IMG/VR virus record: IMGVR_UViG_3300011187_000026
Location: 1 to 36,726 of that record
Origin: a virus
Length of the DNA stretch: 36,726 nucleotides
Reading direction: 5' to 3' (one strand)
Within the stretch, counting starts at the first letter, position 1. Every line of letters starts with the position of its first letter. Below the pieces are notes generated by a model. That model worked only from the letters and a program-made list of their open reading frames with translations, ran no database searches and had not been told where the DNA came from. The translations under genes and the position numbers were made by a program. Positions 546 to 3,712 of this stretch are shown piece after piece.

Positions 546-830
546 ATGAACAAGAAAATCAGAGATCTCTTAGAACAACTCCAGACTGCTATGGCAGAGC
601 AGGTCGAGGTCCGGGAAGAGGCCCCCCGTCGGACAATCTCGCGAAAATCCAAGAACGTCCAACTAGGCACTATGTTCGATTTTCCGACTTTCGGATGGCA
701 GATGGTGACAGGGTTTGAATGTCTGCATGGGGACGACGAAGGCTGGAATAACGTGCTGGGAAACCTACGGTGGGGAACCCGGTCAGAGAACATGATCGAG
801 GCTTGGGCTAACGGGAGGAGGAGTCGGTGA
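546..830 (+). CDS. Small protein ending in an HNH-endonuclease-like remnant
   Basis: This is a 94-residue ORF with a good Shine-Dalgarno (GAGG at 535-538, 7 nt before the ATG). Its stop overlaps the GTG start of the polymerase gene (GTGA). Residues 1-36 form a charged, probably helical segment. Residues 61-90 match the C-terminal half of phage HNH homing endonucleases: H61, two Asn at 68-69, then NLRWGTRSEN at 73-82. The N-terminal part of the HNH core (the first His and the preceding 'LVALAF.GP'-type strand) is missing. It is best read as a truncated HNH gene fused to unrelated N-terminal sequence, probably without nuclease activity. The position next to polymerase is typical of homing genes that sit beside their target. 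Whether the first 50 residues have an independent function is unknown. Confidence 0.6.
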   Translation: MNKKIRDLLEQLQTAMAEQVEVREEAPRRTISRKSKNVQLGTMFDFPTFGWQMVTGFECLHGDDEGWNNVLGNLRWGTRSENMIEAWANGRRSR

Positions 831-3712
831 AAGACATTCTGAACATAGATTTCGAGACCTTCAGCGAAACGGACCTGACGAAAGTTGGGTCCGATGTCTA
901 TTCTCGCGACCGCAGCACGGAGGTCCTGATGGCCGCTGTGAGCCTGAATGACAGCGAAGAGGAGCAGTGGATACCGGAGGAGGGGCAGGATATGCCCCGG
1001 TGGCTGGATGAGGCCATGGAAAGCCCGGATGTCGAGAAGTGGGCATGGAACGCCCCGTTTGAGATGAATATCAATCGGAACTGCCTCGGTCGGCCTGTAG
1101 ACATCAGGCAGTGGCGCTGTACCATGGCGCTGGCCCAGATGTGCGGATACCCCGGCCAGCTTGAGAAGGCTGGCCCTGCCGTTGGCTTGTCCATGGACAA
1201 GCTGAAGATCGCGGACGGCAAGAAGCTGATGCGCAAGTTCTCGATGCGCAAGAAGAGCCGCAAGAAGGCCAGCATGGGCCAGATGCTCCGAACCTATTGG
1301 TACGAGGACATCGAGTCGTGGGAAGACTACCTCGAATACAACCGAGGCGACGTGCGCGCGGAGAAAGCTATCAGGAAGCTGGTGCTGCCCTATGGCCCGC
1401 CAGAGCATGAGTGGCAGCTATGGGAACTCGACCAGACGATCAACCAGCGCGGCCTGCCGATCAACCTCGACATGGTTCGCAATGCCTCCAGCCTCTACGC
1501 GGAAAGCTACGCCATCGGGTTCCGGCAGATGCAGGAACTCACACACCTGTCGAACCCGATGTCCACGCAGCAGTTGCTCCCGTGGCTCAAGGGCAACGGG
1601 TATCCTTTTGACGACCTGAAGAAGGGCCACGTCAAGCAGGCGCGGTCCTATTTTGACCGGAAGCCCGACCACTGGGACGAGGCCCAGTGGCAGGAGTTCT
1701 GCTGGAACTTCGACCTCCGAGACGTGCTAGATCAGCGCCTCGAACTGTCGCGCTCGTCCATTGCCAAGTTCGACGCCCTGTTGCGCGCGACCGTGCCCTA
1801 CGATGACGGCCAACATGGCCTGCTGAGATACACTCTTCAGTTCGCCGGGGCACAACGGACAGCACGCTGGGCCGGTCGGATTTTCCAGCCTCAGAACTTG
1901 CCCCGCCCTGAAAAGAAGTTCGAGAAAGAGATCGAGATGCACGCGGCGAATGTCGCCACGCTGGACCGCGAGAGCATCGAACTGATCTACCCCAACACGT
2001 TCGATCTGCTGGCCTCGACCATCCGCCCGGCGGCTCAGGCCCCAGAAGGCATGATGTTCATCGACGCTGACCTGAACGCCATCGAGAACCGTGTCCTTGG
2101 CTGGCTCTCACGGTGCGACAAAATCCTCCGCGTCTTCAAAGAGAACCGCGACCCCTACGTCGATTTTGCGACCTACCTTTTCCACCAGACCTACGAGAAG
2201 CTGATCGCGGAGTATTACGCGGGCGACGGCTCCAAGAGGACAATCGCCAAGCCGGGGGTCCTCGGGTGTTTGAAAGGCGAAACCCCAGTCCTGACGCAGC
2301 ACGGCTGGAAGGCTATTGTGGAACTCCGCCACGACGACTGGCTGCATGATGGAGCCAAGTGGGTACGTCACGACGGCGTAGTTTTCAAAGGGTATCAGAA
2401 GGTGCTGTGTGGGTCAGGAATACATGCTACTCCCGATCACAGGTTTTTGGCCTATGAGGGATGGCACGAATGGCAACTGGTATCCCAGCAACAGACGTTG
2501 AAATCGGCTCTCGGTATGGGGAATGGCGTGTTCTCAAAAACAGAGGGTCTTCACGCAGCACCGGAAAGCTATTTCTTTGCTCGTGCCGATGTGGTCGAGA
2601 ACGAGTCATACCAAGATCAAACCTCGTCAGAGGATTATCCACTCGTTGCACCGGATGCGCTTCTTCTGACCGTCGCTCCGACATCGGAAAAAGGGTTGGC
2701 CCAAAACTGTTCGACCTTCTCGCAAATCGTTTCTACGCTGCGAGATCGCGTTGTGAAAACCCAGATAACAGTGCCTACGAATACTACGGCGGGCGTGGAA
2801 TATGTATGCGGTTCGACAGCGCGTTCGAGTGGGTTGCGTACCTTGTGGACTGGCTCAAATCAGATGGATTATTCGAAGTTGATCGGATCGACAACGACGG
2901 TGATTACGTCGAGGGGAATCTACGACTTGCAACCCGATCAGAACAAAACTCAAACCGCAGACACTTGGGACATCTTGAATACGGGGGATTATGCCCGGTT
3001 CGCGGTCCTGACGGACGATGGCTGCCTCGTCGCGCATAATTGTGGGTACATGCTAGGCCCCGGCCAGACCTATGAGGACCGCAGCACAGGCGAGATCGAG
3101 GCTACCGGCCTTCTGGGCTACGCTTGGGGCATGGGCGTCAAGCATTTTACACCCGAAGAGTCCAAGCTGTCCGTCGATACCTTCCGTCGCGAGTTCAAGG
3201 AGGTCAAATCCTACTGGTATGGCATCGAACGCGCGGCCATGAAGTGCATCAAGACAGGGAAGCCGCAAGACTTCGATCAGGTCCGTTTCGACCTCAAGGG
3301 ACCCTACATGCGTATCCGCCTGCCCAGCGGTCGTCACCTCCACTACAAGGACCCGAAGATCGAGTCCAAGCGCGCGCCTTGGGGGGACATGAAGGATACG
3401 ATCACCTACCTCGGCCTGAGCGATAAGAAGCAGTGGGTACGCCAGCAGACGCATCCGGGCAAGCTGACCGAGAACGTGGACCAAGCGATCAGCCGCGACC
3501 TTCTGGCGAACGGCATGATGATCGCACATCACCGGCACAAGCTGGACATCAGGCTCCACGTCCACGACCAGATCATCGCCCTCACGACCGAGGAGAAAGC
3601 AGACCACGATCTCGCGATCCTGCGGGACTGCATGGAGGAGAAGCCCCGGTGGGCGCAAGACCTCCCCCTTGGTTCCGCTGGGTTCAAGACCAAGGTGTTT
3701 AAAAAAGATTAG
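827..3712 (+). CDS. Family A DNA polymerase with 3'-5' exonuclease domain, interrupted by an intein
   Basis: This phage replicative polymerase is encoded as a 961-residue precursor, about 703 residues after removal of the 258-residue intein. The start is GTG at 827, preceded by a strong GGAGGAG at about 813-820. The N-terminal exonuclease shows NIDFETF (Asp8, Glu10), a NAPFE motif II and YNRGDV motif III. The polymerase domain shows motif A with DADLNAIENR (D413, D415), motif B (O-helix) KRTIAKPGVLG|CGYMLG split by the intein, and motif C HVHDQ (H913-D914-Q915). Most family A enzymes have HDE in motif C, so the Gln is noteworthy. Activity requires protein splicing, because the insertion falls in the nucleotide-binding helix. 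The gene lies between the HNH-like ORF and nuclease/helicase genes, which makes a replication operon. Assignment is firm. Confidence 0.95.
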   Translation: MKDILNIDFETFSETDLTKVGSDVYSRDRSTEVLMAAVSLNDSEEEQWIPEEGQDMPRWLDEAMESPDVEKWAWNAPFEMNINRNCLGRPVDIRQWRCTMALAQMCGYPGQLEKAGPAVGLSMDKLKIADGKKLMRKFSMRKKSRKKASMGQMLRTYWYEDIESWEDYLEYNRGDVRAEKAIRKLVLPYGPPEHEWQLWELDQTINQRGLPINLDMVRNASSLYAESYAIGFRQMQELTHLSNPMSTQQLLPWLKGNGYPFDDLKKGHVKQARSYFDRKPDHWDEAQWQEFCWNFDLRDVLDQRLELSRSSIAKFDALLRATVPYDDGQHGLLRYTLQFAGAQRTARWAGRIFQPQNLPRPEKKFEKEIEMHAANVATLDRESIELIYPNTFDLLASTIRPAAQAPEGMMFIDADLNAIENRVLGWLSRCDKILRVFKENRDPYVDFATYLFHQTYEKLIAEYYAGDGSKRTIAKPGVLGCLKGETPVLTQHGWKAIVELRHDDWLHDGAKWVRHDGVVFKGYQKVLCGSGIHATPDHRFLAYEGWHEWQLVSQQQTLKSALGMGNGVFSKTEGLHAAPESYFFARADVVENESYQDQTSSEDYPLVAPDALLLTVAPTSEKGLAQNCSTFSQIVSTLRDRVVKTQITVPTNTTAGVEYVCGSTARSSGLRTLWTGSNQMDYSKLIGSTTTVITSRGIYDLQPDQNKTQTADTWDILNTGDYARFAVLTDDGCLVAHNCGYMLGPGQTYEDRSTGEIEATGLLGYAWGMGVKHFTPEESKLSVDTFRREFKEVKSYWYGIERAAMKCIKTGKPQDFDQVRFDLKGPYMRIRLPSGRHLHYKDPKIESKRAPWGDMKDTITYLGLSDKKQWVRQQTHPGKLTENVDQAISRDLLANGMMIAHHRHKLDIRLHVHDQIIALTTEEKADHDLAILRDCMEEKPRWAQDLPLGSAGFKTKVFKKD
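2456..2460 (+). promoter_or_regulatory. Ribosome-binding site for the nested HNH gene
   Basis: GAGGG at 2456-2460 lies 9 nt before the ATG at 2470. An in-frame ATG at 2461 is directly adjacent to the site and therefore too close, so 2470 is the preferred start. The site lies inside polymerase/intein coding sequence. Confidence 0.6.
2470..3039 (+). CDS. HNH homing endonuclease nested out of frame inside the polymerase intein
   Basis: This 189-residue protein is in the -1 (+2) frame relative to the polymerase. It begins with the usual N-terminal module of phage HNH proteins, IGSRYGEWRVL, followed by a zinc-ribbon-like Cys pattern (C37, C39, C41 and C60, C63). The HNH-type core follows: RSRCENPDNSAYEYYGGRGI (92-111), then DRIDNDGDY (138-146) and NLRLATRSEQNSNRR (150-164). 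These are the conserved elements of free-standing phage homing endonucleases, and the protein looks full length. Its last ~25 residues are the out-of-frame reading of intein blocks F/G and show no family similarity. The TAA stop overlaps the intein's His-Asn codons. Codon use looks normal for a phage gene. The probable role is homing of the intein or its host gene into uninterrupted polymerase alleles; this is inferred and not shown. Confidence 0.82.
   Translation: MATGIPATDVEIGSRYGEWRVLKNRGSSRSTGKLFLCSCRCGRERVIPRSNLVRGLSTRCTGCASSDRRSDIGKRVGPKLFDLLANRFYAARSRCENPDNSAYEYYGGRGICMRFDSAFEWVAYLVDWLKSDGLFEVDRIDNDGDYVEGNLRLATRSEQNSNRRHLGHLEYGGLCPVRGPDGRWLPRRA

Follow-up and report, generated by a model that had tools for sequence, protein, structure and literature searches.

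Can one stretch of phage DNA encode the middle of an intein in one reading frame and a complete homing nuclease in another? The question is raised by the virus record IMGVR_UViG_3300011187_000026 (IMG/VR), whose whole stretch of 36,726 bases is referred to here as the window. A family A DNA polymerase gene on its plus strand (827-3712, GTG start, 961-residue precursor) hosts a putative intein of 258 residues in the polymerase frame (2267-3040, plus strand), and a zinc-ribbon/HNH endonuclease gene of 189 residues (2470-3039, plus strand, ATG start, TAA at 3037-3039) is nested within it in the -1 frame, (2470-827) mod 3 being 2. This out-of-frame nesting had been proposed from the letters of the window without database searches (hereafter, the sequence-only reading), and all of the proposed coordinates, the frame and the length hold. 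We consider it highly probable that the element is a mobile mini-intein and that its homing endonuclease is encoded by a separate gene, which overlaps the intein in a different frame. The arrangement is not a one-off and is far more general than the sequence-only reading knew.

The polymerase open reading frame (ORF) matches the phrog_17 DNA polymerase family (E 4e-91) and Pfam DNA_pol_A (E 5e-8, slightly under the curated cut-off). Its frame is stop-free across 2267-3040 and reads C1...HN|C, with Cys1 at one end and His257-Asn258 followed by Cys+1 at the other; Cys or Ser at position 1 and His-Asn followed by Cys, Ser or Thr are likewise found in almost all further loci. The single window sequence gave a sub-threshold match to TIGR01445 intein_Nterm (E 0.0038), a Pfam scan of the intein frames gave no matches, and the intein family profile matches the mini-inteins NEQ068, Mtu RecA and DnaX in the PDB. 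An AlphaFold model made from 25 aligned loci divides the insert, all on the plus strand, into an N-terminal splicing domain with blocks A and B (residues 1-90, 2267-2536; mean predicted local distance difference test score, pLDDT, of 75-95 per 10-residue block), a linker predicted to be disordered whose DNA is also the HNH core (residues 91-223, 2537-2935; pLDDT <50) and a C-terminal splicing domain with blocks F and G (residues 224-258, 2936-3040; pLDDT ~92). The selection ratios given below mark the same three parts, and the linker is further marked by its lack of stops. The model superimposes on the NpuDnaE intein with Z 15.5 and 2.2 A over 117 residues spanning 1-258, and the insert is predicted to have a complete Hint fold formed by its two ends. 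The end motifs, family profile and predicted fold bear out the earlier description of a splicing-competent-looking mini-intein without an in-frame endonuclease; the polymerase frame appears to encode a canonical intein, the splicing of which we infer from these features.

It is scarcely credible that the insertion is instead a tolerated loop that does not splice, as has been proposed for the ShiLan domain, where an HNH is likewise encoded out of frame but no splicing takes place (Arsenault, Gosselin, Gogarten 2025, PMC11855218). The present insert has Cys1, block B TxxH, block F/G, His-Asn and Cys/Ser+1, along with a complete predicted Hint domain; moreover, the splicing blocks are under selection, and the insert is located within the conserved polymerase core.

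The nested protein matches phrog_374 'HNH endonuclease' (E 1.1e-29) and phrog_3377 (E 2.3e-18); no Pfam HNH match was obtained with the single HNH sequence. Its zinc ribbon cysteines C39, C41, C60 and C63 (189-residue numbering; 2584-2658, plus strand) are invariant in an alignment of 25 loci, in which the HNH-type core RGI ... DRIDNDG-Y--GN-R ... N--R (2794-2961, plus strand; pLDDT 82-96) is also invariant or nearly so. The AlphaFold model of the protein is confident at residues 8-165, and its disorder coincides exactly with the stretch that overlies the C-terminal splicing block. A PDB sequence search with the HNH profile found no HNH match, and plain Foldseek with the model found no significant match. 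The TAA of the HNH gene overlaps the codons of the terminal His-Asn of the intein (G CAT AAT read as GCA TAA). Since the stop is built from these codons, the obligatory splicing residues also terminate the nuclease gene in the window family.

Homology and the selection ratios rule out a chance ORF. For the 153-codon HNH core of the window alone, with the HNH protein held constant and codons drawn at their local frequencies, the polymerase frame would be open with a probability of ~0.02. No polymerase-frame stop was present over the core in 35 of 35 loci, where back-translation of their HNH proteins at local codon frequencies led us to expect 0.8-14 per locus. Likewise, 92 non-redundant loci had none over the HNH region, the third frame having a mean of 13 (range 3-30). 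We then sorted substitutions by their effect in both frames and expressed them as a ratio resembling that of nonsynonymous to synonymous changes (dN/dS). In the HNH core, substitutions that change the HNH protein are depleted, with a ratio of 0.38 before correction and of 0.08-0.33 in most pairs after it; the polymerase frame evolves neutrally there (1.00; bootstrap, 0.89-1.09). The relation is reversed in the splicing blocks of the pooled family, with 0.43 for the intein frame and 1.24 for the HNH frame in blocks A-B, and 0.31 and 1.46, respectively, in blocks F-G. A second sample, which overlaps the first in part and in which two +1 and two -1 pairs are near-duplicates, gave 0.30 for the HNH and 0.95 for the polymerase frame in -1 nestings, and 0.38 and 1.22 in +1 nestings. 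The sequence-only reading had named selection on the HNH frame over a near-neutral polymerase frame as support for its model, and both samples show it. Between the splicing blocks, purifying selection (HNH ratio ~0.2-0.4) acts independently through the second frame and preserves the nuclease; at either end of the intein it preserves the splicing domain. The reciprocal ratios by region therefore mean that the linker is selected only for lack of stops.

These ratios also bear on whether the HNH frame is a relic of an inserted nuclease gene that is no longer expressed and owes its readability only to the need for an open polymerase frame. Some members may indeed be decaying (in the locus L002, the D of DRI has become Y), and mini-inteins without an HNH exist. 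Nevertheless, HNH ratios of 0.1-0.4 alongside a neutral polymerase frame are seen in many lineages, and we hold a relic to be very improbable because constraint on the polymerase frame could not yield that pattern.

How would the nuclease be translated? A Shine-Dalgarno (SD) sequence, GAGGG (2456-2460, plus strand), lies within the codons of the intein motif EGW, 9 nt before the ATG at 2470, as had been noted from the sequence; its anti-SD duplex of -8.2 kcal/mol compares with a 5% background quantile of -7.9. The HNH frame of the window is stop-free from 2458 and contains an additional ATG at 2461, which has no suitably spaced SD, and the ATG at 2470 is preferred. The SD is conserved in L001, L002, L003 and L008 (GGAGG or AAGGA), and throughout the window family the start is conserved as ATG or GTG at codon -11 before the zinc ribbon with an SD upstream. 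Most other families have their strongest SD within the intein motif DGxEWV, at codon -49 or -51; an N-terminal extension of the HNH as functional protein is unsupported in these families, the HNH frame being neutral there.

The alternative to internal initiation is programmed -1 (or +1) frameshifting that yields a fusion of the polymerase N-terminus, the intein N-terminus and the HNH. In favour of frameshifting, the -1 frame predominates among the members, several of which have an HNH frame that is already open well upstream of the core. In the window family, however, the HNH frame is closed just before the start, and in L008 it opens precisely at the GTG start itself, which leaves no space for a frameshift ahead of it. 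Nearly all loci have an SD paired with a start, another type of shift would be needed for the +1 nestings, and the HNH frame is unconstrained in the upstream splicing blocks. We therefore judge frameshifting to be a distinctly unlikely source of the nuclease, and return to a separately initiated gene.

The nested layout is present in at least 90 distinct relatives of the window. Three viral contigs whose HNH proteins are 75-80% identical show the same double reading. A scan with the HNH alignment gave 80 viral loci, the 25 closest of which (L027-L051) all lie within long open frames that carry intein motifs; among the more distant, free-standing HNH relatives, the alternative frames are closed with one spurious exception (L055), whose long open alternative frame is a GC-rich ORF without intein motifs and was rejected as nested. 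Bacterial genome contigs scanned with the window-family intein gave nothing, and bacterial genome assemblies scanned with a broader HNH alignment gave eight nested loci; these and the loci examined from an intein-profile scan, which reported 554, are all nested in the -1 frame (88/88). In a survey based on the N-terminal splicing domain alone, so that the linker could not affect the ranking, the best 80 of 373 loci comprised 52 nested in the -1 frame, 20 nested in the +1 frame and 7 mini-inteins without an HNH, of which those with a parsed end have 135-146 residues. In one further locus nested in the -1 frame, L307, and in no other of those surveyed, the polymerase frame stops within the HNH region, through either decay or sequence error. 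An HNH in frame with the intein was found in 0 of these 80, and an HNH frame full of stops, the other result that the sequence-only reading had named as contrary, was not seen. A sequencing error that puts the HNH out of frame is rejected by the same phase in dozens of independent genomes. Taken together, an out-of-frame HNH is the common state of this phage PolA intein family, in both -1 and +1 frames.

Cultured phages are among the carriers, in the -1 frame (Salmonella Jerseyvirus S10 and Ent2, Shigella EP23, Pseudomonas MR14, EBPR siphovirus 2 and Vibrio 97.13) and in the +1 frame (Shewanella SFCi1, Streptococcus Javan255, Caulobacter RLK and APSE-2). The carrier genes are mostly polymerases, interrupted at several sites, and once an SNF2-type helicase, in which a nested-HNH intein lies at the ALTGT motif (L047, 3756-4625) and thus in a changed host gene. 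Two inteins, in L146 and L150, were parsed as 364 residues, longer than the others, and are still nested in the -1 frame.

Evidence for mobility comes from occupied and empty sites. An empty site is found in Synechococcus phage S-ESS1, the polymerase of which is 78% identical and reads GVLG|CGYMLG without interruption; the intein is inserted precisely into a polymerase that is otherwise intact. The window and L001 polymerases (exteins) are 48% identical in amino acids and 58% in nucleotides, whereas their inteins are 77% identical in nucleotides and their HNH proteins 80% in amino acids. The same insertion site in such divergent polymerases, together with a far more similar intein, accords with the expectation from homing; an intein more alike than its polymerases is consistent with homing or recent transfer. 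An active HNH might have another job than intein homing, such as cutting competitor phage genomes. Birkholz reportedly found in 2024 that intron nucleases can contribute to interference between phages during coinfection. That such a job replaces homing is unlikely, given that the intein, including its HNH, occupies the identical site in 48%-identical polymerases and is itself far more similar; homing and interference are not mutually exclusive functions.

A working model of the mobile element can be outlined as follows. A free-standing HNH gene would have entered the loop of an ordinary intein, and the surviving inserts would be those with a length divisible by three and no polymerase-frame stops, because the polymerase is needed. 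The sequence-only reading had pictured such an invasion of a mini-intein with survival of stop-free versions, and the selection and stop counts support it. The polymerase frame would be read through into a precursor, in which the HNH-coding DNA would appear as a disordered loop at the usual position of endonuclease insertion, and the intein ends would fold as a Hint domain and splice out. The internal SD and start would recruit ribosomes so that the HNH nuclease is made independently, and the nuclease would cut an intein-free polymerase gene in a coinfecting phage, after which repair templated by the occupied copy would move the whole element.

Several points weigh against this account. Protein splicing, HNH translation and DNA cleavage are all steps that we infer from sequence. 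The best PDB HNH match of the HNH model is PacI, a weak one (Z 5.4), and the canonical general-base histidine is not evident, with DR where DH is expected; DRIDNDG...GN...N replaces the canonical His motif in most nested members and in the free-standing relative inspected. In families other than that of the window, it is uncertain which codon starts the HNH; a start at -49/-51 is possible, and is unproven because the HNH frame is without constraint in that DNA. The first surveys were ranked by likeness to a nested query, and the N-terminal splicing domain survey, as the best 80 of 373 loci, favours the family from which its query came. The selection ratios were obtained by approximate counting and are saturated in the most diverged pairs.

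The HNH tree, the bootstrap of which is not settled, suggests how often such elements arose. The nested proteins are non-monophyletic: 28 fall in one well supported set, the window family lies outside it, and SFCi1 is placed among free-standing genes. This non-monophyly and the two relative frames indicate separate HNH entries into intein loops, at least two and probably three or more. Loss of the nuclease is seen in L314 and L326 (from 2501 each), which come from the same metagenome and have 99.5-100% identical flanks. They differ by a 531-bp (177-codon) in-frame deletion of the HNH core with a 4-base overlap at its ends, which leaves a 135-residue intein in frame and retains a remnant of the HNH start. 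This pair indicates that the splicing element persists without the nuclease and that a surviving loss preserves the polymerase frame. The short linkers of the mini-inteins in L327 and L325 retain a reading of the HNH N-terminus (SQALDTGARALP, NRALRTGAASL), and these mini-inteins look like deletion derivatives of nested elements. In L002 (4001-4579), otherwise 97% identical to L001, DRI reads YRI and the conserved C-terminal W of the HNH reads G, and the nuclease is possibly in early decay.

We tentatively suggest that the overlap may be a stable, repeatedly evolved design of mobile phage inteins, which could separate the dose of the nuclease from that of the polymerase and shield the nuclease from decay, because almost every indel that kills the nuclease also kills the polymerase. 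If so, inteins with hidden nucleases are miscounted as dead mini-inteins. A phage intein that lacks an in-frame endonuclease is commonly taken for an immobile end-stage of the homing cycle. In the present family, most such inteins carry a conserved nuclease in another frame, and for these the usual view is wrong. The elements are also a natural overlapping-gene system, in which one frame is selected for sequence over ~150 codons and the other only for freedom from stops, the roles being reversed at both ends. Homing of an intein by an out-of-frame nuclease, translation inside an open gene and slowing of nuclease loss by overlap are all testable, and the tests are practical because the carriers include common cultured phages.

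The arrangement has been almost entirely missed by sequence annotation. The annotated records of cultured carriers list one polymerase gene at the locus, and the Ent2 record labels the polymerase intein only as 'encoding splicing domains'. In SS3e the HNH gene is annotated, but the polymerase frame is broken in that sequence. APSE-2 P46 (L109, 250-672) bears the label conserved hypothetical and corresponds to the C-terminal part of the +1 nested HNH in the P45 polymerase intein. The S-ESS1 polymerase (L107, 492-2607) is annotated as two overlapping coding sequences in different frames, which suggests that a frameshift or an error in the sequence lies close to the 3' end. Directly 5' of the window polymerase is a 94-residue ORF (546-830, plus strand) that matches Pfam HNH_3 (E 5e-5) and phrog_1492 (E 7e-9); it is apparently the C-terminal part of a different HNH family and the remnant of a free-standing HNH gene.

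The sequence-only reading knew of no standard description of such an arrangement. For inteins we found none, but a similar insertion without splicing domains was published in 2025: a literature search for an out-of-frame nuclease inside an intein, whose scope excluded subscription papers and the preprint doi 10.1101/2025.01.02.630785 ('Actinobacteriophage Inteins: ... Non-Canonical Architecture', which could cover related cases), found only the ShiLan domain. This insertion in a mycobacteriophage DNA methylase, reported together with an insertion in Pacc40 gp60, was neither an intein nor an intron in its authors' tests (PMC11855218). Like the window element, it has a zinc-finger HNH out of frame inside a phage gene that keeps its own frame open, and its scattered distribution suggests homing. 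It differs in having no splicing domain, a non-essential methylase as host and no detectable ribosome-binding site, whereas the present elements have a predicted Hint-fold intein, host genes of an essential type (polymerase or helicase), selection that was measured for each of the two frames and, in the window family, an SD.

In known inteins, the endonuclease domain is found at a highly conserved position (PMC6801210). The present HNH lies at the loop corresponding to that position, where known inteins have their endonuclease in frame. Canonical inteins (LAGLIDADG, PI-SceI) share the Hint domain, the endonuclease DNA between blocks B and F and transfer at a fixed site; their endonuclease is a same-frame domain of the intein polypeptide, as is the HNH of the Synechocystis GyrB intein, whereas here it would be a separate protein. 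Like the present element, mini-inteins (the Mtu RecA splicing domain, DnaX and gp41-1) have a splicing domain and no in-frame endonuclease, in agreement with the profile and model matches of the polymerase frame; they lack its loop of 130-160 residues, the DNA of which specifies a nuclease when read in another frame. In group I introns with HNH genes (e.g., I-HmuI of SPO1), and in the fractured genes with split inteins and free homing endonuclease genes that Dassa reportedly described in 2009, a separately translated homing nuclease lies inside a splicing element. Unlike in either, no RNA splicing is needed in the present element, and the nuclease gene overlaps the coding frame of the intein itself. 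A further likeness is APSE P45/P46, in which P46 is annotated within the P45 polymerase gene and is part of the nested HNH ORF; it differs in its +1 frame and in a record that calls P46 conserved hypothetical rather than a homing nuclease.

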